The position numbers and the translations under genes were made by a program. This document shows positions 9,218 to 33,599 of a DNA stretch of 45,997 nt, piece after piece (position 1 is the stretch's first letter; each line of letters starts with the position of its first letter). The notes under the pieces are model-generated. The model ran no database searches. It was not told the DNA's origin and saw only the letters and a list, made by a program, of their open reading frames with translations. The DNA comes from Ignavibacteriaceae bacterium (GTDB lineage: Bacteria > Bacteroidota > Ignavibacteria > Ignavibacteriales > Ignavibacteriaceae): contig JACZKK010000079.1 of assembly GCA_014860115.1 (NCBI GenBank), positions 1 through 45,997 on the forward strand, given 5' to 3'.

Positions 9218-10900
9218 ATGTTTGAAAACAGCTCAAAAACAGAAGATTTATTAATTTACCAGGTTCCGCCTGAATGGCGCGGACAGGCAAAGATACACAC
9301 ACTCTATCCGCCGATACCAAAACACACCGGCAGTATTGATTTCGACATCTTCGATTTTGATATGCTCTTCAACGATCGTGCAACAAAAAAATTAATTCGT
9401 TCGGGGAAAACTATCGGCTGCTTTTATATTGAATCGCCGGGAATGCGTTCGCTTCTTCGCAGACTCGATGTTGAAACTTTTGAGATGCTCACTGCGGCAA
9501 GTTCAGTTATTCGTCCCGGTGTTGCAGAAAGCGGAATGATGCAGGAGTTTATCGCACGGCATAAAGATCCTTCACGAAGAAAATATCTTGTGCCTGAAAT
9601 GGAAATTTATCTCGGCGAAACTTACGGAGTGATGATCTACCAGGAAGATGTAATTAAAGTTGCACATCACATTGCAGGGTTGAGTCTTGAAGATGCCGAT
9701 CTTTTACGCAGAGCAATGAGCGGAAAGATGCGTTCACATCACGCAATGCAGAGGATTGTTGATAAGTTTTTCGTTTCCTGCAAAGAAAAAGGATTAACCG
9801 ATTACCAGAGCAAAGAACTCTGGCGTCAGATTGAATCGTTTGCAGGTTATTCTTTCTGCAAAGCACACAGTGCATCGTTTGCATTACTTTCTTACCAGGT
9901 TGCATTTCTCAAAGCACATTATCCGGCGGAGTTTATGGCAAGCGTACTGAACAACGGCGGCGGATTTTATTCAGCAGCAGTTTACATTGAAGAATCAAAA
10001 CGTTTGGGCTTGAAGATTGAGCTTCCTTCAATCAATGAAAGTGAAAAGGAATATGTGGGAAAAGGAAGAAGCATTCGCATTGGTTTAAAAGCAATAAAGA
10101 ATCTTTCTTACAATGCAATTGAAAAAATTATCGAGGAAAGAAAACGCAACGGCAAATATATTTCGCTGGCGGATTTTCTTGTCCGTACAAAACTTGCTTA
10201 TGAAGAAACTGCTTTACTGATTAAATGCGGTGCAATGGGATGTTTCAAGCAAACGAGACCGACGTTGCTTCGCCTGTTGGATATTTATATCCATCGAAGA
10301 AAAATAATTGAAGAAAGTTACAACGACCTTTTTCTTAGGGAAACTTTTGCTCTTGAGGAAGAAGTTAAAACGGATTTGAACTACACTCTCGCCGGAATTT
10401 GCAAAGAAGAATACGAGGCTTTCGGCTATATGATTACGCGACATCCGCTTCACTTTTTTAAAGAATGGATTGAACAGAAGGGAGTTGTTCCTGCAAAGGA
10501 TATGCTTCGGAACAAAGGACGGCGAGTGAAGATGATCGGCTGGTATATGACTTCCAAGAGAATAAAAACAAAAAGCGGTGAGATAATGAAATTCCTCTCG
10601 CTTGAAGATCTCACGGGAACTTTTGAAGCAGTTATCTTCCCGAAAGTTTATTACCGTGTTGCTGAACTTACGTTGTCAATGGGACCATACTTCGTTACAG
10701 GCAAAGTGGATATGAACGATCACACAAATCTTGTTGTTGAAGATCTGAAAGTTCTTTCTTCAACAGCTCTGCAATCAAGCCTGATGAAAGACAGTGTTGA
10801 GCACAACTACTATGGTGATGAAGAAAAAATAACTGAGGAAGATTTTGCTCTGGCAAAAGCCTTGGATCATAAAAAGCTTAAAGTTGCTTACGCCGGTTGA
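9218..10900 (+). pseudogene. DNA polymerase III alpha subunit (DnaE-type), 5'-truncated remnant
   Basis: The 560-residue frame matches the C-terminal half of C-family polymerases. It contains TIGCFYIESPGMRSLLRRL, the RPG segment (IRPGVAESGMMQEF), LGETYGVMIYQEDVIK, DADLLRRAMSGK, and AGYSFCKAHSASFALLSYQ with LKAHYPAEFMA. An HhH region and an OB-fold (RRVKMIGWYMTSKR...) follow. Family members have about 1000 or more residues. The PHP domain and the palm segment with all three catalytic aspartates should lie upstream and are absent. An in-frame TAG at 9194 closes the frame before the ATG, which has no ribosome-binding site. It therefore cannot polymerise DNA alone. The sequence RPGVAESGMM resembles the second, DnaE2-like alpha subunits seen in Bacteroidota-type genomes; subtype is uncertain. 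The frame is otherwise intact, implying recent loss or retained expression. Confidence 0.8.
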
Positions 10901-11930: not shown

Positions 11931-12593
11931 ATGGTAAAGAAAATATTAAAACTTCTTTCTAGTCATTCACAGATTACTCTGATTGTCAGCATATTGCTTC
12001 TGATACTTTTTTCTCCTTTCTATTGGGATTCACCTTTCGCAAATTATTTTAACTTTCTGTTCCTTAGCTTAATATTACTTTCATCTATTCTTACACTTAA
12101 GAAAAGCGGTTTTAAATTTAAAAGAGTACAATCAATTGGATATTTAATTTTAGCCTTGACCTTACTCACTGCAATCTTGCACAATGATTATCTGGAACTT
12201 GTAAACAAGATAGTGTTTGTCCTGTTTTACATTCTTGTAGCTATCAACCTGCTTGTTGGGATAGTTAAAAGCAAAGAAGTTGATTCTAATGTTATCTTCA
12301 GTGCGGTAGCAGTTTACCTTTTATTTGGATTTTGCGGTGCACTTCTGGCGGCGGTAGTTCATTTCTTCAATCCTGCTGCATTCTCATTAGAAAGTACATA
12401 TTCCAGTCAGTTTCATCAGTACTTATATTTCAGCTTCATAACATTTACCACAACCGGATACGGTGACGTTCTCCCAATTTCTCCAATGGCAAGAACTTTG
12501 GCAATTTTTCTGGCGGTATTTGGTCAGATATATCTAACTGTTATAATAGGTATCCTAATAGGAAAATATTTATCGGGTAGTAAAAAGTCCTAG
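11931..12593 (+). CDS. Two-pore-helix-type K+ channel-like membrane protein
   Basis: A 220-residue membrane protein. Several N-terminal helices (about residues 13-110) lead to a pore module near the C-terminus. That module has an outer helix, a selectivity filter TTTGYGD (about residues 178-184) and an inner helix ending in GILIGKYL. This is the ion_trans_2 arrangement of simple bacterial potassium channels. There is no RCK/TrkA-N domain, and the protein stops soon after the inner helix. Ion selectivity is inferred from the canonical filter. It may be co-transcribed with the lipoprotein upstream. Confidence 0.82.
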   Translation: MVKKILKLLSSHSQITLIVSILLLILFSPFYWDSPFANYFNFLFLSLILLSSILTLKKSGFKFKRVQSIGYLILALTLLTAILHNDYLELVNKIVFVLFYILVAINLLVGIVKSKEVDSNVIFSAVAVYLLFGFCGALLAAVVHFFNPAAFSLESTYSSQFHQYLYFSFITFTTTGYGDVLPISPMARTLAIFLAVFGQIYLTVIIGILIGKYLSGSKKS

Positions 12594-12714: not shown

Positions 12715-14595
12715 ATGTATAAAACTTTCTTATCATCTTTCATTGTTTTTCTATTACTTACCAGCGCATCGGAAGTGAATGCCCAACAAAATAAACAAAC
12801 AAAAACCATACTTATCATTTTTGGGCTTGCCCCTAACCAACCGGCATACATTCCTCTCTTAAAGGGGATAAGAGAAAAGCTTGATGAAGAGTTTTATGAA
12901 AACTATAACTTTCATATGGAATACTTAAACCTTAGACGTTATGAGAATGACAATTTTCCAAATGAATTATTTGAATCGTTAAATAAAAAATACAGAGAGA
13001 TACATATAGATTTATTAATATGTATAGGAATAAATCCGGTCCCTACGATTAAAAAATTTGCCGAAAGATATCTGCTTGAATTACCAACGATTTCAATGGA
13101 TCTGGATTTTTCAGATTATGGATTTGTTCAAGATATGAGGTTGAATAATGTTACAACAATTGTAAATATGAATATTGATCCTGCAAAATCAATTGCATTT
13201 GGCATTAAATTATTTCCGGAAACTTCTTCAGTTTATTTTATTTCCGGCGTTATGCAGCTTGATAAGTTTTACCTTTCTAGTAGTAGAGAGTGGGCAGAAA
13301 AAAATCTCTTAGACAAAAAGATTACATATGTTACCGATCTTAAAATGCAGGATATTCTTGATAAGGTTAGACGATTACCAAAGAAGAGTATTGTATTTGT
13401 CGGATCATTTAGTTTAGATGCTGATTCCATTGAATACAACAACCCTGAAGCGATCCGGCTAATTTCTTCTCAATCTAACGCTCCAGTATTTGGTTACAGT
13501 GATCTGGGCTTTGGTGAAGGACCAATCGGAGGTTATATAGCAAGCTTTGAGAAAGTTGGTCAATTCATGGGTAAGGCGGCTGTGAAGATTCTAAATGGTG
13601 CAGATCCTAATTCCTTTAAAATAACTGAGCAGGACTATTATGAATATGTTTTTGACTGGAGGCAGTTAAAAAGGTGGAATCTCCTCAAATCAGATTTGAT
13701 TCCAGCCGGAAGCACCATTATGCATGAAAACATTTCGTTCATAGATAGATATAAATGGATTGGCGGAGTTGTTCTGCTGTTTTTAGTATTGCAGACACTT
13801 TTAATTGCTAACCTGATACGTTTGAATAGAAATCAAAAACTTATGACAACGAAAATAATCGAATCAGAAAACAGATATAGAGAATTCCTGCACGAAGACA
13901 GAAGTTTGAGGCTTGGACAGCTTACTGCTTCACTTTCACACGAACTTAATCAACCACTTACTGCCATACTAAGTAATGCCCAGGCAGGAATTAATTTTAT
14001 AAATTCAAATGAAGCAACACCTGACCTGTTAAAACAGATCTTCCAGAAAATTGTTGATAATGATAAGAGAGGAGCATCAATACTGAGCAGCATCAGGGGA
14101 ATGATGAAACTTGAGCACAGGGAAAAAGGCAAAGTAAATCTTAATGATCTGATTAACGAAGTTTTAGTTGTTATACAGGGTGAAGCAAATAGATACAATA
14201 CCAGACTAAATTCAGAGTTAACCGGTAAAACAGTATATGTATTAGGTGATAGAATACAGATACAGCAGGTGCTGCTAAATTTTCTGTTGAATGCTACACA
14301 GTCAATGGAAAAAATAGATGCGTCGAGTAGGGAAATAACTGTATCCAGTACAATTAAGGATTCAGAAGTAATCGTTTCCGTTAGTGACAAGGGTGAAGGA
14401 ATTGATGAAGCGACAAAAGATAAACTCTTTAAACCTTTCATCACTTCAAAGAAAGAAGGCACAGGCATCGGATTGGTAATTTGCCGCTCGATTATCGAAG
14501 ACCATGGCGGAAAGATCTGGGCTGAGAATAAACCTGATGGTGGTGCAAAGTTTTCATTCAGCTTAAAAATGTTAGAAGATGGAAAAAGCAGATAG
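12715..14595 (+). CDS. Sensor histidine kinase with periplasmic binding-protein sensor domain
   Basis: A 626-residue two-component sensor. Order: Sec signal peptide (1-24, ending VNAQ); an ABC-type substrate-binding-like periplasmic domain (about 28-335, beginning TILIIFGLAPNQPAYIPLL); one transmembrane helix (about 348-368); a HisKA dimerisation domain with the phospho-acceptor H409 in LSHELNQPLTAIL; and a HATPase domain with N-box NFLLNATQSM, G1 DKGEGI and G2 GTGIGLVICRSIIEDHGG. The architecture suggests direct sensing of a small ligand in the periplasm. It overlaps the downstream FixJ-type regulator by 17 bases, so they form a pair. Being at the head of the amino-acid/dicarboxylate gene run, it could sense an acidic amino acid, amide or dicarboxylate; that ligand is inference. 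Confidence 0.9.
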   Translation: MYKTFLSSFIVFLLLTSASEVNAQQNKQTKTILIIFGLAPNQPAYIPLLKGIREKLDEEFYENYNFHMEYLNLRRYENDNFPNELFESLNKKYREIHIDLLICIGINPVPTIKKFAERYLLELPTISMDLDFSDYGFVQDMRLNNVTTIVNMNIDPAKSIAFGIKLFPETSSVYFISGVMQLDKFYLSSSREWAEKNLLDKKITYVTDLKMQDILDKVRRLPKKSIVFVGSFSLDADSIEYNNPEAIRLISSQSNAPVFGYSDLGFGEGPIGGYIASFEKVGQFMGKAAVKILNGADPNSFKITEQDYYEYVFDWRQLKRWNLLKSDLIPAGSTIMHENISFIDRYKWIGGVVLLFLVLQTLLIANLIRLNRNQKLMTTKIIESENRYREFLHEDRSLRLGQLTASLSHELNQPLTAILSNAQAGINFINSNEATPDLLKQIFQKIVDNDKRGASILSSIRGMMKLEHREKGKVNLNDLINEVLVVIQGEANRYNTRLNSELTGKTVYVLGDRIQIQQVLLNFLLNATQSMEKIDASSREITVSSTIKDSEVIVSVSDKGEGIDEATKDKLFKPFITSKKEGTGIGLVICRSIIEDHGGKIWAENKPDGGAKFSFSLKMLEDGKSR

Positions 14596-15214
14596 TAAAA
14601 TATTTATTATTGATGATGACGATGAAATCCTTCAGAGTCTTTCTCTGCTGCTTAAATCTTCCGGATATCAGGTTGAGACCTTCCCGAGTACAGCACAATT
14701 CTTAGAAACTGAAAACATTAATTGCCCGGGATGCATTTTACTTGATGTATTTCTCGGTGGCAAAACAGGACTGGAATTGCAGGTAGAAATTGAAACAAAA
14801 TTTGAATGTCTTCCTATTATTTTTATCACCGGTCAGGGTGATATACCAATGAGTGTTGAAGCAATGAAAAAAGGGGCAGTAAATTTTCTTCAGAAACCCA
14901 TTGATGAAAAAGAATTATTCAATGCAATTGATGAGGCGCTTCAGAGAAGCATTTCGCTTATCAGTAAACAAACCGAATTAGAAAAATTTAAATCTTTGAT
15001 TAGCACTCTTACTGCAAGGGAATACGAAATTTTTCGATATGTAATTACCGGAATGCTGAACAAACAAATCGCCTCTGAATTAGGCATTGCTGAACACACC
15101 GTTAAAAATCATCGCTTAAAAATAACTGAAAAGCTTGGTGTGAAGTCTGTAGCAGAAATGATATGCATCGCCGATAAGATGAATATAAAAGGCGTCTCCA
15201 TTAATAATATCTAA
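14579..15214 (+). CDS. FixJ-type response regulator (receiver plus LuxR HTH)
   Basis: A 211-residue regulator. The N-terminal receiver has the acidic pocket IIDDDDE and the phospho-acceptor D56 in LLDVF, with the conserved threonine in FITGQ and lysine in LQKPID. The C-terminal LuxR/GerE-type helix-turn-helix (about 143-205) contains LTAREYEIFRYVITG, NKQIASELGIAEHTVKNHR and KLGVKS. FixJ/NarL-type regulators dimerise on phosphorylation and activate promoters. The gene overlaps the kinase gene, which is its evident partner. Likely targets are the following genes; a candidate inverted-repeat site lies at 15275-15290. Confidence 0.93.
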   Translation: MEKADSKIFIIDDDDEILQSLSLLLKSSGYQVETFPSTAQFLETENINCPGCILLDVFLGGKTGLELQVEIETKFECLPIIFITGQGDIPMSVEAMKKGAVNFLQKPIDEKELFNAIDEALQRSISLISKQTELEKFKSLISTLTAREYEIFRYVITGMLNKQIASELGIAEHTVKNHRLKITEKLGVKSVAEMICIADKMNIKGVSINNI

Positions 15215-15274: not shown

Positions 15275-15290
15275 TAGGACTAAGTACCTA
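15275..15290. promoter_or_regulatory. Candidate operator, inverted repeat TAGG-N8-CCTA
   Basis: In the 133-base gap after the FixJ-type regulator there is an inverted repeat TAGG/CCTA with an 8-base spacer, about 57 bases before the start of the next gene. FixJ/NarL-type dimers commonly bind short inverted repeats near promoters, so this is a reasonable candidate, but the arms are short and I found no second copy upstream of the other cluster genes. Confidence 0.3.
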
Positions 15291-15347
15291 TTTACTCCGG
15301 TTACCAAAAGAAATAGATTTCATCACAAATTATTTAAGGAGATAAAA

Positions 15348-15947
15348 ATGAAACACTTTGCACTGATTCTTTTATTTGCTTTTTCTTCTTTATCAATTGC
15401 TCAGGAGATTGATTCCTCTATTGTTGAAAAAGATTCCATAATTGTTGAAGAACAAACTCCACCCGAAACACAACCCACATCACCCACAGCGAGCAAATGG
15501 TATTATGGTGGTACCGTCGGTTTCAGCTTTTGGAATGATTACACGTATATAGGACTTTATCCACAGGTGGGATATAAAGTTACGCCCCAGTTTTCAGTAG
15601 GTGGAAAAATCGGATACTCATATTACAATTATCATGATACAGATTTGAGTACTGATAATTATGGTGGAAGCATATTCACAAGATATAGAGTTATTCCGCA
15701 GTTTTACCTTCACGGTGAATTTGTCTACTTCAGTTATGAGCAGCAAACTTACGATTTACAGACGAGGGAATATGGGACAGAACGAAATTGGGTTCCTTTT
15801 ATATTACTCGGAGGCGGATTAAGTCAAAACATTGGACAAAATGTATGGGCATATGTTGAGATATTGTTCGACGTTTTACAAGATGAAAATTCACCCTATG
15901 ATGAATGGGAACCATTTATAAGCATTGGTGTTGGAGTAGGCTTTTAA
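15348..15947 (+). CDS. Predicted outer-membrane beta-barrel protein
   Basis: A 199-residue protein with a signal peptide ending SIAQ at about residue 19 and a proline/threonine-rich linker (about 36-48). About eight amphipathic strands follow, ending in the aromatic C-terminal residue of SIGVGVGF. Strands such as WYYGGTVGFSFW, VGYKVTPQFSVGGKIGYSYY and YGGSIFTRYRV are typical of small 8-stranded barrels. Substrate unknown. It is preceded by AAGGAG and sits between the two regulator genes, directly after the candidate operator, so it is a plausible first target of the two-component system. Confidence 0.78.
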   Translation: MKHFALILLFAFSSLSIAQEIDSSIVEKDSIIVEEQTPPETQPTSPTASKWYYGGTVGFSFWNDYTYIGLYPQVGYKVTPQFSVGGKIGYSYYNYHDTDLSTDNYGGSIFTRYRVIPQFYLHGEFVYFSYEQQTYDLQTREYGTERNWVPFILLGGGLSQNIGQNVWAYVEILFDVLQDENSPYDEWEPFISIGVGVGF

Positions 15948-15974: not shown

Positions 15975-16337
15975 ATGCAAATGATTCATATTATTGACGA
16001 TGACCCGAATGTTAGAGATGGATTTATGATGCTGCTTAAATCTGCGGGCTACGTTTGTGATGCTTTTGAAAGTGCTGAGAAATTTTTAGAAAATTATAAT
16101 GCAGAATCGTTCGATCTGCTTATCCTTGATATTCATTTACCGGGGATGAGCGGTTGTTCATTATTGGAATATTTAAGAACAAAAAAAATGCGATTGCCGG
16201 TAATTATCATTACTGGTTATGATGAAAAATCTACTCGTACTGCTGCCAAAGATTATGGTGCAATCGCTTACTTAAGAAAACCGGTAGACAGTACAGCATT
16301 ATTGGACCTGATAAAATTCAATTATGCAAAGGCATAA
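15975..16337 (+). CDS. Stand-alone receiver-domain protein (CheY/FixJ-receiver-like)
   Basis: A 120-residue protein consisting only of a response-regulator receiver: acidic pocket IIDDDPN, phospho-acceptor D52 in LILDIHLPGMSG, threonine in IIITGYD and lysine in YLRKPVD. No output domain follows. It closely resembles the receiver of the FixJ-type regulator at 14579 (IIDDD..., LLKS-GY, F-S---FLE), so it may have arisen from it. It could act as a phosphate sink or compete for the same kinase; this is inference. No strong ribosome-binding site precedes the ATG; a second ATG lies two codons later. Confidence 0.88.
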   Translation: MQMIHIIDDDPNVRDGFMMLLKSAGYVCDAFESAEKFLENYNAESFDLLILDIHLPGMSGCSLLEYLRTKKMRLPVIIITGYDEKSTRTAAKDYGAIAYLRKPVDSTALLDLIKFNYAKA

Positions 16338-16427
16338 AACTGAAAAAAATTTATTCAATCGTGATTTTGAATGTACAGAATTATTACTAAACAAAATTCA
16401 CTTAACTATAAACAGAAAGGAAGAACT

Positions 16428-17660
16428 ATGAAACACTCACGACTTATTCTTGTATCTTTTTTCATCGCACTCTTCGCAATAAGTCTGAACGCACAGGACA
16501 AAAACTGGTTCCAGGTTTACGGCTTTGCAATGACCGATATCGGTTACAATGCAAAACAAATCCAACCTGATTGGTACGATGTTGTAAGACCGACAAAACT
16601 TCCAACCATAGAAAATGAATATGGCTCTGATGGAAACGTATTTTTCAGCGTACGTCAAACTCGTTTTGGTGTAAAAAGTGGAACACCAACTGCTCTCGGT
16701 GAACTCTTCACCCAGTTTGAATTTGAAATGTTTGGAACCGGCAGCGATGCTGGCCAGACAACTATTCGTCTCCGACATGCTTATGGTGAACTTGGACAAT
16801 TTGGTGCTGGTCAATACTGGTCACCGTTTATGGATATAGATGTGTTCCCGAATTCAGTTGAGTATTGGGGACCTAACGGTATGGTATTTTTCCGCAATAT
16901 CCAATTTCGATATATGCCGATTAAAGGAGATACACGATTAACATTTGCTCTCGAAAGACCGGGTGCAAGTGCTGATGGAGGTGTTTATAGTGAAATACTT
17001 CAGGAACAAAATATCAGCGGTCAATTCCCTCTACCTGACTTATCAGCGGAGTATCGTTACGGTCAGGATTGGGGTTATGTAGAACTGGCTGGCATTGTTC
17101 GTTATATAAAATGGGTAGATCAGAGTGATAATGAATATGATTTGAGTGATGAAGCATTAGGATGGGGCCTTAACTTGAGTTCAAATTTAAAGATAACTAA
17201 GAATGATGTTTTAAGACTTGCGTTTGTTTACGGTGAAGGAATTCAGAACTATATGAACGATGCCCCGGTTGATATCGGAATTCAGGATAATTCAAGTGAT
17301 CCTGAGAAACCAATTAAGGGAGTTCCAATTCCAATGATGTCAGCCGTTGCTTTTCTGGATCATAACTGGAGCGAAAAATTCTCAACTTCAGTTGGTTATT
17401 CTTTCCTGGATATGGATAACACCGACCTTCAAAGTTATGATGCCTTTAACAGAGGTCAGTATGCTCTGATAAACTTGCTTTATTACCCGGTAGCGAATGT
17501 AATGATGGGAGCTGAAATACAGTGGGCTGACAGAGAAAACTTTAATAACCTTGTAGAGGAAGGAGAAGTTCAATATCCGGAGAATTATTTGAAGACTGCT
17601 GACATTTTAAAGGTTCAGTTCTCATTCAAATATAATTTTTCACATAAAGTATTGTTCTAA
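16428..17660 (+). CDS. DcaP-type trimeric outer-membrane porin
   Basis: A 410-residue outer-membrane channel. The start is the ATG at 16428, with AGAAAGGAAG upstream and a signal peptide ending SLNAQ; an upstream in-frame ATG at 16371 would prefix 19 non-signal residues. The mature protein strongly matches the DcaP family, with YGFAMTDIGYN, DWYDVVRPTKLP, FSVRQTRFGVK, LRHAYGELGQFGAGQYWS and VEYWGPNGMVFFRN. DcaP of Acinetobacter is a trimeric channel for negatively charged, dicarboxylate-type substrates. Here it precedes secreted glutaminase, and a role in admitting acidic or amide amino acids fits the context, though substrate is not shown by sequence. Confidence 0.9.
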   Translation: MKHSRLILVSFFIALFAISLNAQDKNWFQVYGFAMTDIGYNAKQIQPDWYDVVRPTKLPTIENEYGSDGNVFFSVRQTRFGVKSGTPTALGELFTQFEFEMFGTGSDAGQTTIRLRHAYGELGQFGAGQYWSPFMDIDVFPNSVEYWGPNGMVFFRNIQFRYMPIKGDTRLTFALERPGASADGGVYSEILQEQNISGQFPLPDLSAEYRYGQDWGYVELAGIVRYIKWVDQSDNEYDLSDEALGWGLNLSSNLKITKNDVLRLAFVYGEGIQNYMNDAPVDIGIQDNSSDPEKPIKGVPIPMMSAVAFLDHNWSEKFSTSVGYSFLDMDNTDLQSYDAFNRGQYALINLLYYPVANVMMGAEIQWADRENFNNLVEEGEVQYPENYLKTADILKVQFSFKYNFSHKVLF

Positions 17661-17694
17661 ATTTTTTAATACTTAACTAAAGGAGTTAAATAAA

Positions 17695-18726
17695 ATGAAA
17701 CTATTATTAGTCAATACAAGATTGGTAGTAATAATGCTTGTTGCTTTATTGCTATCGAGTCCTGTTACTTTGTTTGCACAGGATCTTTCAAAAGCAAACG
17801 TAGAAAAAGTCCTTAGCGACGCATACAACAAATTCAAAGATGTAAAAGAAGGTGCAAATGCTGATTACATCAAAGAGCTTGCTACTGTTGATCCGAATAT
17901 CTTTGGAATTGCTCTGGTAACAGTAGATGGTCAGGTTTACACTGCTGGCGATATTCAATCAATGGTCTCAATCCAGAGTGTATCTAAAGTCTTTACAATG
18001 GCTAAGGTTATTGAGGAACAAGGTCATCAATCCGTTCAGGATAAAATTGGAGTTGATGCAACCGGTGAAGTATTCAACTCAATTACAGCAGTAGAAAGAA
18101 TGAGAGGAAAGGAAATTAATCCTCTTGTTAATCCCGGTGCAATTGCTTCAACAAGCTTGATTAGCGGTGCAGATTCTTCTGCTAAATGGAAAAATGTATT
18201 ACAGGTTCACAGTGATTTTGCAGGTCGTCAGTTAAGTCTGAATGTTCCTGTTTACATCAGTGAAGCCGGAGACAATTTACGTAACCAGGCTATCGCACAT
18301 CTTCTTCTTGCTTACGGCAGAATGTATTTCGATCCGGTTGAAGCAACAGACATTTACACAAAGCAATGTGCAATAAACGTTAGTGCAAAAGATGCTGGGA
18401 TTATGGCTGCGACTTTAGCAAACGGTGGAGTTAATCCTGTAACAAAGAAAAAAGTTGTGTCACCTGAAACAGTTATGTACACTCTTCCCGTTATGTCAAC
18501 AGCAGGACTATATGATGACTCAGGTATCTGGTTTTACAATGCCGGTGTTCCAGCAAAAAGCGGAGTTGGCGGATGCTTGATTGCAGTTGTTCCGGGAAAA
18601 TTCGGAATTGCAGTAGTATCACCGCCACTTGATAAAGCTGGGAACAGTGTTAAAGGTCAGTATGCTATTAAATATGTTATCGAACAGCTTAAGGCTAATC
18701 CGTATTTGATTCAGCCAAAGCAGTAA
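17695..18726 (+). CDS. glsA: Secreted (periplasmic) glutaminase, serine-dependent type
   Basis: Glutaminase hydrolyses L-glutamine to glutamate and ammonia. The sequence matches the GlsA family of beta-lactamase-like fold: SxxK motif S95-V-S-K98 (SMVSIQSVSKVF), INPLVNPGAIAS, NLRNQAIAHLLLAYGRM, LANGGVNPVTKKKV and AGVPAKSGVGGC. Unlike the usual cytoplasmic GlsA of about 305-310 residues, this one has 343 because it carries an N-terminal signal peptide (about 1-28, LLLSSPVTLFAQ). It should therefore act in the periplasm. GGAG precedes the ATG at the expected distance. It follows the DcaP porin by 34 bases, suggesting an operon. Confidence 0.93.
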   Translation: MKLLLVNTRLVVIMLVALLLSSPVTLFAQDLSKANVEKVLSDAYNKFKDVKEGANADYIKELATVDPNIFGIALVTVDGQVYTAGDIQSMVSIQSVSKVFTMAKVIEEQGHQSVQDKIGVDATGEVFNSITAVERMRGKEINPLVNPGAIASTSLISGADSSAKWKNVLQVHSDFAGRQLSLNVPVYISEAGDNLRNQAIAHLLLAYGRMYFDPVEATDIYTKQCAINVSAKDAGIMAATLANGGVNPVTKKKVVSPETVMYTLPVMSTAGLYDDSGIWFYNAGVPAKSGVGGCLIAVVPGKFGIAVVSPPLDKAGNSVKGQYAIKYVIEQLKANPYLIQPKQ

Positions 18727-18751: not shown

Positions 18752-18848
18752 GGGGCTATTCTAAAACTGTTTATTTATGTTAAGTTGAGTAAGCCTCCTC
18801 CCGCCAAGCGGGACTCAGTTTTACATAAGCAGTTATTTAGGTAGCCTC
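18752..18848. repeat. Long imperfect palindrome, MITE-like unit A
   Basis: The unit begins GGGGCTATTCTAAAACTG (18752-18769) and ends with an imperfect reverse complement (18830-18848). A second internal arm pair follows (18767-18789 with 18812-18830), and the centre is a perfect TCCCGC-CAA-GCGGGA hairpin (18799-18813). The whole unit could fold into one near-continuous stem. It has no coding frame. Confidence 0.6.
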
Positions 18849-21563: not shown

Positions 21564-22309
21564 AAATTGAATTAGTCCGTTTAACAAAAAAAATATTATT
21601 CGGTTTGGTTATCCTTACCAGTATTCCACTTTATAGTCAGCAATTTAATTCGGATAATTATCTATCTAAACCACATGGTGTTTCAACAATTATTCTTACG
21701 TACGGTGAGCGAAATACAATGATGATGACAACATTCTCATTGCTGCCCAGATGGGAATTTACGGTTGCAGGATACTTGTATAATGATGATGATGATCCCA
21801 CAACCGATGATGGACACTCGACATCACTTTATGCAAAATATATGATTTATGAAAATGATTCTAAAACCGGAGGTGTTGCAGTTAAAGCTGGAACAGGCTT
21901 AGATCCCGGTTATCTGGATGGCAACGACAGAGTTAATGATGCATTTAAAACTTATTGGACAAATGTACCAATCACATTTGGTTTCTTAGAAAACACTCTT
22001 TCGTGGGACATAATGCCCGGTGCAAGTGTTACCAGAAACTATGGAGAGGAGAATTCCACTGTCTGGTATGTTACATATTCAACCAGATTGGCCTGGTATC
22101 CTGCCAGCCCCAACTGGGCTGTGGTTGGAGAAATTTATGGTTCAGCCGGAGATTTAAATGTTGATACTGAGTTCAGAGTTGGTTTACGCTGGGAACCAGA
22201 CCAGCATACTAATATTGCAATAACGTACGATGAAGAATTTGGAGGTAATCAAGGCGGAGGATTTGAAATTGGTCTGATGCTTTTTACACCGCCATTTTTT
22301 AAGCTGTGA
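21560..22309 (+). CDS. Predicted outer-membrane beta-barrel protein
   Basis: A 249-residue protein with a signal peptide ending PLYSQ (about residue 27) followed by alternating amphipathic strands (HGVSTIILTYGERN, WEFTVAGYLYND, STSLYAKYMIY, TNIAITYDEEF) and a C-terminal strand ending GLMLFTPPFFKL. It is probably a small outer-membrane barrel; no family is recognised. An acidic DDDDPTTDD loop near residues 75-83 could bind cations. Coupled to the amidohydrolase by a four-base overlap and to the next gene likewise. Confidence 0.72.
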   Translation: MKIELVRLTKKILFGLVILTSIPLYSQQFNSDNYLSKPHGVSTIILTYGERNTMMMTTFSLLPRWEFTVAGYLYNDDDDPTTDDGHSTSLYAKYMIYENDSKTGGVAVKAGTGLDPGYLDGNDRVNDAFKTYWTNVPITFGFLENTLSWDIMPGASVTRNYGEENSTVWYVTYSTRLAWYPASPNWAVVGEIYGSAGDLNVDTEFRVGLRWEPDQHTNIAITYDEEFGGNQGGGFEIGLMLFTPPFFKL

Positions 22310-22326
22310 TTAGAAGGAATTTTCTT

Positions 22327-24447
22327 ATGAATGACTTAATAAAAATTTTAATCTTTCTTCTGATAATTAATATTGAATCATTTTCGGAAGAATGGCCGAA
22401 GATAATTACTCATTCATCCGGGACAGAAGTTACATTTTATCAGCCGCAGATTGAATCCTTTGACAATATTATTCTGCAGTCACGCGCAGCAATAATGATT
22501 AAATCTCAGAAGCAAACAGAACCAATCTTTGGTGCGGTTTGGATCCAAGCCAAAGTTTTAACTGATCGCGATACAAGGTTGATTACACTTGATGAAGTTG
22601 TGGTTACAGATGCAAAGTTTCCAAACCAGGATTCAACAAAAATTGAAGAGCTGAAGAAATTTCTATCTGAAGAAATTCCGAAGTGGGAGTTGGATATCAC
22701 AATCGATCAGTTGATTGCCAGTTTGGAAGATGATAAAAGTAACACAAAAGAAAATTTCAAAACGGATCCGCCTGAAATTATCCACGTAACAACTCCGTCA
22801 GTTTTAATTACCATTGATGGTGAAGCAAAACTCAAAAAGCTGGAGGACACTGATTTCGAAATGGTGATCAACACTCCATTCTTTATTGTGAAAGACAACT
22901 GGGATGAAGTTTATTACCTGAAAGGCGGAGTGCTGTGGTACAAATCAGAAAATATTTACGATGAATATGAATTCACTGAAGAAATTCCGGATGAGCTTAT
23001 CGAATTCATCCTCAAAAAAAATCCTGATGAATATAAGGATATTGATCCTGATACGATCAAAGTTAAACCTGAGATAATTGTAAGAACCAAACCAGCCGAG
23101 TTAATCGTAACCACCGGCGAACCAAAATTAGCTTCGATAGAAGGAACATCGTTGTTATTTGTTGAGAATACTGACAGCGACATAATCTTTGATATCAAAT
23201 CACAATCTTATTTCATACTTATTTCAGGCAGATGGTTCCAATCAAAATCCCTTGAAGGACCCTGGAGTTTTATTGAACCAGAAAACCTGCCAGCAGACTT
23301 CGTAAAAATTCCAGGTGACTCAGATATGAGCAATGTACTTGCGAACGTTCCGGGAACTCAGGAATCAAAAGATGCAATACTTGATACACAAATTCCTCAA
23401 ACTGCAAAAGTTGAGCGCAGCACAAAGCTCGAAGTCAATTATGATGGCGAACCTAAGTTCGAAGCATTATCAACTACTGATCTTTATTATGCAACAAACA
23501 CAGACAAGAATGTAATCAAGTATTATGATAAATATTACTGCTGCGATAATGCAATTTGGTTTATTGCTGATAGCCCGAAAGGTCCCTGGAAAGTTACAGA
23601 TCGGGTGCCGGATAAAATATATGAAATGACTCCCGACTCCCCGGTTTATAATACCAAATATGTTTATGTGTACGATTCAACTCCCGAATATGTTTACACA
23701 GGATATTACCCTGGCTATACTGGTTGTTATGTTTATGGTGGAACAGTTATTTACGGAACAGGATATTATTATCAACCGTGGTATGGTACTTATTATTATC
23801 CACGTCCGGTCACTTACGGATTTTCTGTTCATTACAATCCTTATATGGGATGGAGCTTTGGATTTGGAATGAGCTATGGAGGTCCTTATGGCTGGATGTC
23901 TTTCAGCTATCATTCATATCCATATTATGGAGGCTATTGGGGTGCTGGCAGATATCATTCAGGCTATCATCACGGATATTATCAGGGAAGAAGAAACGGA
24001 TTTTATGCGGGTTACCATTATGCACAGAATAACCCGCGGATCAATCCTTATGGAGATGGAAACAGAAACGTTTACAATCGTGAGAATCGTGGAAATATTA
24101 ATACGAATGACAGGCAGCGAAACAATGTTTCTACAATGGATAGACAGAGAAATAATGTTTCTACTGGGGATGTCCAGAGAAACAGAGTAAATACAAATAA
24201 TAATGTTTATGCAGATAAACAGGGTAACGTTTATAAAAAAGAAAACAATCAGTGGCAATCGAGGGAAGGAAATAATTGGTCAGGTGTTGATCAGAGTAAA
24301 AACAAATCTAATTATGAAGGAAATAAGCAGGACTTAAACCGTCAGCAAACTTCAAGAGATAGAGGGAATCAGAGGACACAAACCTATAATCAGCAAAGGA
24401 CTAATACGTCGAGAAGTATGAACAGAGGTGGTGGAAGAAGAAGGTAA
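22327..24447 (+). CDS. Large secreted repeat protein with Tyr/Gly-rich and Asn/Gln/Arg-rich C-terminus
   Basis: No named function is recognised. The ATG at 22327 is preferred (AGAAGGA upstream; gives a signal peptide ending SFSEEW); a GTG at 22306 is also in frame. The 706-residue protein has three related repeats of about 80-95 residues (about 149-228, 249-332, 359-440). Each has the pattern T-P/K-L-x-x-DGEPKL and a hydrophobic-aromatic stretch; the last two also carry GPW. Residues about 450-565 are extremely rich in Tyr, Gly and Pro. The end is polar and basic, including tandem 10-residue units DRQRNNVST-type (595-624). An extracellular or surface-coating role is suggested by composition only. 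Confidence 0.7.
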   Translation: MNDLIKILIFLLIINIESFSEEWPKIITHSSGTEVTFYQPQIESFDNIILQSRAAIMIKSQKQTEPIFGAVWIQAKVLTDRDTRLITLDEVVVTDAKFPNQDSTKIEELKKFLSEEIPKWELDITIDQLIASLEDDKSNTKENFKTDPPEIIHVTTPSVLITIDGEAKLKKLEDTDFEMVINTPFFIVKDNWDEVYYLKGGVLWYKSENIYDEYEFTEEIPDELIEFILKKNPDEYKDIDPDTIKVKPEIIVRTKPAELIVTTGEPKLASIEGTSLLFVENTDSDIIFDIKSQSYFILISGRWFQSKSLEGPWSFIEPENLPADFVKIPGDSDMSNVLANVPGTQESKDAILDTQIPQTAKVERSTKLEVNYDGEPKFEALSTTDLYYATNTDKNVIKYYDKYYCCDNAIWFIADSPKGPWKVTDRVPDKIYEMTPDSPVYNTKYVYVYDSTPEYVYTGYYPGYTGCYVYGGTVIYGTGYYYQPWYGTYYYPRPVTYGFSVHYNPYMGWSFGFGMSYGGPYGWMSFSYHSYPYYGGYWGAGRYHSGYHHGYYQGRRNGFYAGYHYAQNNPRINPYGDGNRNVYNRENRGNINTNDRQRNNVSTMDRQRNNVSTGDVQRNRVNTNNNVYADKQGNVYKKENNQWQSREGNNWSGVDQSKNKSNYEGNKQDLNRQQTSRDRGNQRTQTYNQQRTNTSRSMNRGGGRRR
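24109..24198 (+). repeat. Three tandem 30-base coding repeats
   Basis: Three consecutive 30-base units encode DRQRNNVSTM, DRQRNNVSTG and DVQRNRVNTN at residues 595-624 of the secreted repeat protein; the preceding ten residues (ending RGNINTN) look like a fourth, degraded unit. Copy-number variation is possible here. Confidence 0.75.
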
Positions 24448-32114: not shown

Positions 32115-32132
32115 ATATTATTGGAGTTAGTC

Positions 32133-33599
32133 ATGTTATCAATGAAAAAAATATTTTTATCATTCATCGTTGGATTTATGTTTTTACCAGCAGTCCTATT
32201 TGCACAGGATGGTGGATTCAGAATAGAAAAAGACCTGTTGGGAGAAAAGCAGATACCAAACGATGCATACTATGGCGTACAAACTTTACGCGCATTAGAA
32301 AATTTTCAAATCAGTGGTGTTACTACCAAAGATTATCCCGAATTAGTAAATGCTTTTGTGTTGGTTAAACTTGCTGCGATCAGAGCGAATTATGAATCCG
32401 GTGCTCTTCCGAAATATGTTCTTGATGCAGTTGAAAAAGCCTGCGCTGAAGTGCTTGCAGGAAAATATCACGACCAGTTTTTAGTTGATCTTTATCAGGG
32501 CGGTGCAGGTACATCAGCTAATATGAATGTCAATGAAGTACTTGCTAACATTGCTTTGGAAATGAGCGGAAAGCAAAAAGGTGATTATGCTTACATAGAG
32601 CCTCACGATCACCTGAATATGTCGCAGTCAACAAACGATTCCTATCCAACTTCACTTCACGTTGCAATAATTCTGATGAATCAAAAACTTCTTCCTGAAC
32701 TTGAAGCATTAGTAAAATCATTTGAATCTAAAGGAAAAGAGTTTGAAAACATTCTGAAGATGGGAAGAACAGAATTACAAGACGCAGTTCCTATGACACT
32801 GGGTCAGGAGTTCTATGCTTTTGCATCTCAGCTCAAAGCTTCGATAGAAGAACTTAAACAAGCCGAAGCACATCTTTATGTAATTAATATGGGCGGTACT
32901 GCAATTGGCACAAAGCTGACTGCTCAAAAAGGTTTTGTAGAAAATTGTGCAAAGCATCTAGGCGATATCCTGAAAAAGAAAATAGTTTCCGCAGATGATT
33001 TAATCGCGGCAACTTCAGATCTCTCTGGTTTTGCTAATTATTCAAACGCATTAAACACACTTTCAATAAGACTCTCAAAGATTGCAAGCGATTTAATTTT
33101 ATTAGCTTCTGGTCCGAGAACAGCATTATTTGAAATAAATCTTCCTCCACTTCAGCCGGGTTCTTCAATTATGCCGGGGAAAGTTAATCCGGTAATGCCG
33201 GAACTTATGAATCTTGTTACATTCAAAGTGATGGGTAATAATGTGGCTGTTACTATAGCGTCAAAGACCGGTCAACTTCAATTGAATGCATATGAGCCGC
33301 TGGCAATTTCCTGCATACTTGAATCGCAGAAACTGCTCACAAATACAATGAAAGCTTTCAGAACAAGCTGCATCGATGGTATTACAGCAAATGAAGATGT
33401 GATGACAAAGTATATTAATCAAAGTGTTGGAATCGTAACTGCTCTTAATCCTGTTTTAGGTTATGAGAAAACAACCGAGCTTGCAAAAGAAGCTTTGGAA
33501 ACAGGAAAAGGAATTCTTGAGCTCATTCGTGAGCAAAAATTATTAACTGAAGAGCAAATAAAAGAATTGCTCGATCCAAAGAAGATGACCGGGCAATAG
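32133..33599 (+). CDS. aspA: Aspartate ammonia-lyase with N-terminal signal peptide (predicted periplasmic)
   Basis: Aspartase converts L-aspartate to fumarate and ammonia. Family evidence: IEKDLLGEKQIPNDAYYGVQ, TSANMNVNEVLANIALEM, the aspartase-type NMSQSTNDSYPTSLH, and the signature GSSIMPGKVNPVMPELMN; STND-YPT and the post-signature residues favour aspartase over fumarase C. The start is ATG 32133, with GGAG six bases before; a TTG at 32121 is not needed. The first about 25 residues (MLSMKKIFLSFIVGFMFLP... ending AVLFAQ) form a clear Sec signal peptide lying exactly before the point where E. coli AspA begins (IRIEEDLLG). The usual enzyme is cytoplasmic, so this predicted location is unusual. 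It starts 18 bases after the Dcu gene. Confidence 0.93.
   Translation: MLSMKKIFLSFIVGFMFLPAVLFAQDGGFRIEKDLLGEKQIPNDAYYGVQTLRALENFQISGVTTKDYPELVNAFVLVKLAAIRANYESGALPKYVLDAVEKACAEVLAGKYHDQFLVDLYQGGAGTSANMNVNEVLANIALEMSGKQKGDYAYIEPHDHLNMSQSTNDSYPTSLHVAIILMNQKLLPELEALVKSFESKGKEFENILKMGRTELQDAVPMTLGQEFYAFASQLKASIEELKQAEAHLYVINMGGTAIGTKLTAQKGFVENCAKHLGDILKKKIVSADDLIAATSDLSGFANYSNALNTLSIRLSKIASDLILLASGPRTALFEINLPPLQPGSSIMPGKVNPVMPELMNLVTFKVMGNNVAVTIASKTGQLQLNAYEPLAISCILESQKLLTNTMKAFRTSCIDGITANEDVMTKYINQSVGIVTALNPVLGYEKTTELAKEALETGKGILELIREQKLLTEEQIKELLDPKKMTGQ

Follow-up and report, generated by a model that had tools for sequence, protein, structure and literature searches.

A binding-protein-headed kinase, a FixJ-type regulator and a lone receiver form a predicted phosphorelay cassette with a conserved promoter box in Ignavibacteriaceae

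The window analyzed here is a 45,997-nt stretch of an Ignavibacteriaceae bacterium (JACZKK010000079.1; contig C131 of a 3.9-Mb draft genome, G000), in which a sensor histidine kinase and a FixJ/NarL-type response regulator stand at the head of a co-oriented gene run and are followed by a conserved, putative regulator box and a set of genes that includes a stand-alone receiver (Table 1). Directly 5′ of the kinase, an ion-channel gene and a lipoprotein-like gene are likewise co-oriented. A preliminary description of this DNA, limited to positions 12715-15214, had named a kinase paired with a FixJ regulator, and this was borne out by two open reading frames (ORFs) overlapping by 17 bp and by their Pfam domains; the third cassette member, the lone receiver, starts about 760 bp past the regulator and thus lies beyond the extent then given. 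HisKA (1.1e-8) and HATPase_c (4.4e-24) were matched in the kinase, while the regulator combines PF00072 (3.1e-24) with PF00196 (GerE, a LuxR-type helix-turn-helix; 1.6e-18), the layout of the FixJ/NarL type. The top NCBIfam models for kinase and regulator were FixL and FixJ, with the regulator scoring 159.9 bits against the FixJ model NF006900, under its equivalog cut-off of 255. The TtrSR models NF040750 (cut-off 750) and NF040749 (cut-off 290) were not reached, at 116.3 and 156.7 bits, the latter being the score of the regulator against TtrR, and the TtrS match was confined to kinase residues 333-608, comprising the membrane and kinase part. The kinase-regulator architecture is known in kind.

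The kinase starts with a signal-like sequence and has, besides it, one hydrophobic segment, within residues 346-371; no Pfam domain was found in the kinase between the membrane helix and HisKA. PF04392 (ABC_sub_bind) matched residues 47-320 with 17.9 bits (E 0.0019), under the gathering score of 25.9. Structure prediction of the sensor, which the preliminary description had proposed, was performed on residues 24-346 with AlphaFold2 and gave a type I periplasmic binding protein with a mean predicted local distance difference test (pLDDT) of 80.9 and a predicted template-modeling score of 0.76, built on an alignment of only four sequences, the other four models having pLDDT of 52.9-67.2. Residues 5-315 of the model matched 6hnj best in the PDB (Z 21.3, root-mean-square deviation 3.8 over 278 residues), followed by 6hni (Z 17.4), 3lft (Z 17.2) and 3lkv (Z 16.7), with the remaining type I binders at ≤14.6. 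Together with the hydropathy profile, this upholds the earlier view of a binding-protein-like sensor joined by one helix to the kinase. Proteins of the 6hnj, 6hni, 3lft and 3lkv type (CD0873, TrpX and VC_1101) are described as having tyrosine, tryptophan or phenylalanine as ligands (PMC6816091), and in fold the modeled sensor looks like an aromatic-amino-acid-type binder; because it shares only 13-16% identity with the nearest binding proteins, its ligand cannot be named from the fold. The ligand contacts considered were those of CD0873, VC_1101 and SP1069. In a weak sequence alignment, with the numbering set from the A262-E263 and Y279 of the CD0873 paper (PMC6816091), two selectivity positions, Glu263 and Tyr279 of CD0873, fell on Ser239 and Phe255 of the sensor; Glu263 is described there as the tyrosine-selecting residue, which holds the tyrosine hydroxyl.

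The cassette is carried by G000 and by three same-genus relatives, G002, G003 and G005, the last a metagenome-assembled genome (81% complete). Comparison of the regions 3′ of the regulator in these four carriers identified TAGGACTAAGTACCTATTTACT at positions 15275-15296, which is identical in G002 and differs by one base in G003 and by one in G005. The box within it, TAGGACTAAGTACCTATTT, is the sole high-scoring site of the window, with a score of 53.3 from a matrix that includes the site itself; the runner-up, at 12.7, is about equal to the best of three shuffled windows (12.6). A TAnnTTT element follows the box after 20 bp. Bacteroidota promoters have TAnnTTTG as their −7 element, and a site near −41 suits FixJ/NarL activators. 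Further copies of the box were found on contig C7 and twice on contig C193 of G000, at 3694815 and 3705111 of G002, and on C235 and a second time on C368 of G003. The ends of contigs C199 and C7 overlap by 26 bases at a box, which suggests that the two are neighboring contigs and that the assembly was broken by the repeated box; their boxes were therefore counted as one site, leaving four distinct boxes in G000 and 11 distinct boxes in a set of 12 rows. A TAnnTT[TAC] element starting exactly at +39 from the box start was found for 10 of the 11 (7/11 for strict TAnnTTT), compared with 19/1881 (1.0%) of the intergenic positions in the window, the wider class having been chosen post hoc with the boxes already seen. 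Since they represent only four promoter types, the 11 boxes are not 11 independent cases.

Scanning the 164 genomes of the order for box plus element with ≤1 mismatch gave nine hits, only in G000, G002 and G003, all kinase carriers, and in G000 itself the combination occurs at four promoters. With ≤2 mismatches, 11 hits against one reversed-control match were obtained in the four carriers; the other 160 genomes gave 12 hits, spread over nine of them, and 26 control matches. The earlier interpretation was to fall if regulator sites occurred only elsewhere in the genome; predicted sites were found both at this locus and elsewhere.

The box probably drives the outer-membrane-type protein (without Pfam match), the receiver, the DcaP porin and the glutaminase, judging from the gaps of 27-34 bp among these genes and from a terminator scan that found no plus-strand terminator-like site from the box to the glutaminase and two after it, at 18799 and 18959. 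The scan is a weak one, because three plus-strand terminator-like sites fall inside coding sequence. The receiver also lies 3′ of the box in G002, and directly after it in G005. Elsewhere in G000, the C7 box precedes a run of genes for a DUF4136 lipoprotein, an OmpW-like protein, GDPD, DUF3943, an AI-2E transporter, DUF481, glyoxalase and metallo-beta-lactamase-fold proteins, while one C193 box precedes two outer-membrane-type proteins without Pfam match and the other an MscS channel; the extent of each box-driven transcript is presumed. Glutaminases with ≥90% identity were confined to the cassette carriers G000, G002 and G003, and four distant genomes have homologues of 32-36%.

Table 1. Features of the kinase-regulator-receiver locus and of the presumed operon behind the box (positions in the window)
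Feature	Coordinates	Strand	Basis
Ion-channel gene next to kinase, kept in G002, G003 and G005	11931..12593	+	Pfam, synteny
Sensor histidine kinase, 626 aa	12715..14595	+	ORF, Pfam, hydropathy
Periplasmic sensor domain, type I binding-protein fold, TrpX/CD0873-like	12784..13752	+	AlphaFold2 model, PDB matches, weak PF04392 match
Single transmembrane helix, about residues 349-371	13759..13827	+	Hydropathy
HisKA and HATPase_c; phospho-acceptor His409 in SHELNQPL (codon 13939-13941)	13912..14571	+	Pfam
FixJ/NarL-type response regulator, 211 aa	14579..15214	+	ORF; Pfam Response_reg and GerE
Putative regulator box TAGGACTAAGTACCTATTT	15275..15293	+	Conserved beside cassette in four genomes; genome scans
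TAGATTT, promoter −7-type element (TAnnTTT), at fixed distance from box	15314..15320	+	Sequence scan
Small outer-membrane-type protein, first gene past box; syntenic in G002	15348..15947	+	ORF; type judged from sequence
Stand-alone receiver, third cassette member	15975..16337	+	PF00072 3e-28; aligned with receivers of related cassettes
DcaP-type porin	16371..17660	+	PF19577 2.6e-23
Glutaminase A, signal-like N-terminus, last gene of presumed operon	17695..18726	+	PF04960 5.2e-98; NF009020 over cut-off
Terminator-like hairpin past glutaminase	18799..18813	+	Terminator scan

The sensor was detected at E 1e-10 in three of the five same-genus relatives, in none of 31 others of the family and in two of 22 others of the order (23-24% identity). 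At E≤1e-25, five of the 164 genomes of the order had it, namely the four carriers and G490 (27% identity). In 395 sampled genomes of the phylum, the sensor alignment (E 1e-8) matched eight, of which the six outside the genus scored far lower and, where their ORFs were inspected, proved to be other kinases; the regulator at E 1e-40 matched two, both of the same genus. Against genome contigs the alignment found only three loci, because its patterns were drawn from one genus, and no match was obtained against viral contigs. The plasmid search returned 156 records, 142 of them from Sinorhizobium, Rhizobium or Ensifer, all with identities <60%. This patchy spread suggests horizontal mobility of the cassette.

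In G002, the run from the kinase to the transporters and beyond is syntenic with the window. G000 has a second cassette on C193 (kinase 45% identical over 624 aa, regulator 56%, receiver 50%), flanked by arylsulfatase and HAD hydrolase genes; upstream of the arylsulfatases of this own-genome paralogue, neither the rhizobial nor the ignavibacterial matrix found a significant site. G002 has one such kinase, one such regulator and three boxes, so that one regulator can serve all boxes.

Related cassettes were examined by tblastn in 12 plasmid loci (stretches of 13-41 kb), nine chosen by kinase similarity (L033, L034, L035 and L108-L113) and three by HAD-hydrolase similarity (L040, L041 and L043), with L108 and L041 from the same Alloyangia strain. 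Kinase, regulator and receiver were adjacent in all 12, with 26-30%, 36-43% and 31-39% identity to those of the window, in Rhizobium, Ensifer, Sinorhizobium, Pararhizobium, Alloyangia and Microvirga, the Microvirga locus having two cassettes; the L108 kinase is in two pieces, the second with 34% identity. Eight loci picked by regulator similarity (L072-L079) were left out of the cassette count, since their longest kinase matches by ORF-based blastp (≤259 aa) were too short and therefore not the sensor. An arylsulfatase match was present in 9/12 loci and a HAD match in 8/12. The HAD neighbor is no evidence in L040, L041 and L043, because these were picked by it; among the kinase-picked loci, seven of nine had an arylsulfatase or HAD match (exceptions L034 and L109). 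At E 1e-4, none of the 12 loci matched the window glutaminase, asparaginase, aspartase, Dcu, AspT, malic enzyme or DcaP. A lead on DUF1254 was dropped, and a DUF1254 gene was merely noted at L070.

Two side observations concern these loci. At 5983-10606 of L108 (Alloyangia plas2), kinase and arylsulfatase were each matched in two frames, the HAD hydrolase match spans only 50 aa and an IS30 transposase follows soon after, so that this cassette looks decayed. The HAD-family hydrolase of L033 (S. meliloti pSymA, 16769-17896) is 62% identical to that of G000 (L002, 184-1188), compared with 28% for the kinase, and its transfer between the two is possible.

Around the cassettes of the rhizobial loci, CCCCnAAGG(A/T)CAATA-like sites were found. 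Five of six loci fetched after the patterns had been fixed contained a type A or B box (≤2 mismatches) near the cassette, and reversed controls gave 0 in all six; counting the six earlier loci, whose sites had partly shaped the patterns, 11/12 plasmid loci have a related box. Whole-locus reversed controls for L033, L034, L035, L040, L041 and L043 gave 1, 0, 3, 0, 0 and 0. The Alloyangia site GGACCAAGTACCTA, with one mismatch to the ignavibacterial box, occurs in two cassettes of a single strain, each time between the receiver and the arylsulfatase, and the ignavibacterial matrix scored it at 15.9, exceeding all of 200 shuffles that moved two-base blocks rather than being exact dinucleotide shuffles. 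An Ensifer adhaerens site, GGACTAAGGACCAAT, has two mismatches. The recognition-helix stretches are alike in kind: AEHTVKNHR in the window, AEKTVKVHR in Alloyangia and SERTVK(A/V)HR in rhizobia.

On balance, we read the locus as a three-protein phosphorelay cassette whose conserved box switches on a few envelope and enzyme operons, an explanation in which we place somewhat more belief than doubt. A periplasmic ligand would be caught by the TrpX-like domain and the change relayed through the single membrane helix to the kinase, which would phosphorylate the FixJ-type regulator. The phosphorylated regulator would then bind the ACTAAGTACCTATTT box, centered near −41, which would stand in for a −33 element, and activate promoters with a TAnnTTT −7 element. 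One transcript would thereby encode the outer-membrane protein, the lone receiver, the DcaP porin and the exported glutaminase, as the short gaps and the terminator-like sites suggest, and three more promoters of the genome would be driven, those of the DUF4136/OmpW-like/GDPD/AI-2E run, the outer-membrane-type pair and the MscS channel. Because the receiver is itself a predicted target and sits after the box, it may damp the kinase as FixT does FixL; by this analogy, we hold the feedback role loosely, with rather more doubt than belief. The cassette, presumably mobile in view of its patchy spread, would recruit different hydrolase and envelope operons from host to host.

More tentatively still, the cassette may carry its own cis-code and work with it in both Ignavibacteria and Alphaproteobacteria, each host wiring different operons by a box at a fixed promoter distance. 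One periplasmic signal would in this way govern arylsulfatase and HAD hydrolase in some hosts, porin and exported glutaminase in others. The TrpX-like head and the usual arylsulfatase neighbor suggest that this signal is an aromatic compound, perhaps freed from or carried by sulfate esters.

Several observations weigh against the phosphorelay reading. At the two C193 boxes, it may be the paralogous regulator that acts instead of the window's; only a weak site of its own, TAGAACTAAGGTACTATAG (P 0.025), was found with it. The proposed feedback is argued from the position of the receiver. One of the 11 boxes has TTAACTT at +39. Looser scans did not outdo their reversed controls in both genomes: with control matches given as totals not split by mismatch class, the ratio of hits to control matches was 4:0 in G000 and 3:4 in G002 for the 22-mer with three mismatches, and 9:13 and 3:20 for a 17-mer with two mismatches. 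The carrier G005 has cassette and box, and a glutaminase was not found in this incomplete genome; that of G003 sits on another contig. L113 has the cassette and no box. Column comparison of the rhizobial CCCCnAAGGaCAATA box with the ignavibacterial box was not significant (P 0.32), so that treating the two as one motif was rejected and the bridge between the phyla is claimed only via the Alloyangia sites and the one Ensifer adhaerens site. A nitrogen compound may yet be the signal, given that the annotation of some plasmid loci includes other, unrelated genes for amides or amino acids: L034 and L035 have an acetamidase, L035 also an amidase and an amidohydrolase, L040 has histidine degradation, and L108 has such neighbors as well.

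An alternative that we judge unlikely, yet the least so of those considered, is a response to envelope, acid or ion stress, in which the genes turned on by the cassette would be those for porins, for a mechanosensitive channel and for a glutaminase that releases ammonia. MscS, the OmpW-like and other barrels, GDPD and the DUF4136 lipoprotein among the targets fit such a role, as do ion-channel, Na/Ca-exchanger-family, VIT1-like (below cut-off) and PPK2 genes and, as named from sequence, RND-type pump genes in the wider cluster; in S. meliloti, 11-15 kb from the cassette, there are two ORFs presumed to be amino-acid antiporter-like and one presumed to be arginine-deiminase-like. However, the wider cluster genes are without a box, and a binding-protein fold is not needed for stress sensing.

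The preliminary description had favored an acidic amino acid, amide or dicarboxylate as the signal, linking substrate level to the expression of exported enzymes. In a nutrient switch of this kind, the sensor's ligand would be an acidic amino acid, amide or C4 acid, and the exported glutaminase and its neighbors would be induced for its use. The operon behind the box does end with an exported glutaminase, so that a link to one exported enzyme holds; some 11.5-19 kb past the kinase come genes, syntenic in G002, for asparaginase, for an aspartase whose N-terminus is signal-like, and for Dcu and AspT; amide or amino-acid genes accompany some of the plasmid cassettes; and AauRS of Pseudomonas is described as a two-component system for acidic amino acids (PMC7962211). 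Nevertheless, a matrix scan of the window found no box at the asparaginase, aspartase, Dcu and AspT genes, the three other box promoters precede mainly envelope genes, none of the 12 plasmid loci matches these genes, the glutaminase or the malic enzyme, and the nearest folds bind aromatic amino acids, so that we regard this signal as quite unlikely. As an observation in its own right, the aspartate ammonia-lyase at 32121-33599, with its signal-peptide-like N-terminus, lies beside a type II asparaginase and a Dcu transporter, which looks like an exported route from Asn via Asp to fumarate.

That the box is the site of another regulator, a sigma factor or the paralogous regulator and is merely near the cassette seems the most improbable: three of the four G000 boxes do lie away from the window cassette, and two of these share a contig with the paralogous one, but box and cassette co-occur, a single cassette accompanies three boxes in G002, related cassettes of a second phylum again have boxes beside them, and the position near −41 is that of FixJ/NarL activators.

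A literature search (limited wordings; titles and abstract openings) found nothing on the cassette or the box; as far as it shows, the box, the promoter geometry, the regulon and the three-part cassette common to two phyla are new. Kinases of this binding-protein-headed family can thereby be assigned a predicted DNA site and a small regulon, and the cassette itself supplies a candidate for feedback, which makes ligand and output testable with one reporter. A kinase ligand guessed from gene neighbors can mislead, because relatives keep the cassette yet change the neighbors.

Two further features of the window were noted. At 9218-10900, the C-terminal half of a DnaE-type polymerase (560 aa; finger and HHH, with an OB-fold match just below cut-off) is encoded on its own; it is kept in G002 (92% identical), and no ORF of similar size lies between it and ftsZ. 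The 713-aa protein at 22306-24447 has a Tyr/Gly-rich stretch and no Pfam or NCBIfam match, and is 87% identical over 526 aa in G002.

Among known systems, AauR, a sigma-54-dependent regulator, is described as an enhancer-binding protein (PMC7962211); the window regulator consists of receiver and GerE, with no sigma-54 activator domain by Pfam. The nearest folds of the sensor are CD0873, TrpX and VC_1101, unlike which the window domain is fused to a kinase and, relative to CD0873, has Ser239 in place of Glu263. In TtrS-TtrR, the tetrathionate system, a kinase with a binding-protein-like sensor is paired with a FixJ-type regulator; the window pair is under both model cut-offs. FixL senses through a haem PAS domain. 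As in FixL-FixJ-FixT, there are a kinase, a FixJ-type activator and a single-domain receiver, which in the window would likewise be under pathway control; Caulobacter FixT is described as a receiver with an inhibitory effect on FixL and as a member of the regulon that FixLJ induces (PMC7078487). In contrast, the window sensor is a periplasmic binding-protein domain, the receiver lies inside the cassette, the equivalog cut-offs are not reached, and the four-Cys motif of Caulobacter FixT is absent from the window receiver, which has two Cys. On S. meliloti pSymA, the ORFs beside and within the cassette are those that we take to be SMa1683 (arylsulfatase) and SMa1686 (FixJ-like regulator). SMa1686 is described as RirA-regulated with no known tie to microaerobic growth or symbiosis (PMC4560400), and SMa1683 as lower in a tolC mutant (PMC2912261). 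Unlike the window cassette, that of pSymA lies beside arylsulfatase and HAD genes, which are 34% and 62% identical to those beside the paralogous cassette of G000, and has the box CCCCAAGGTACAATA; its kinase (28%), regulator (42%) and receiver (36%) resemble those of the window.

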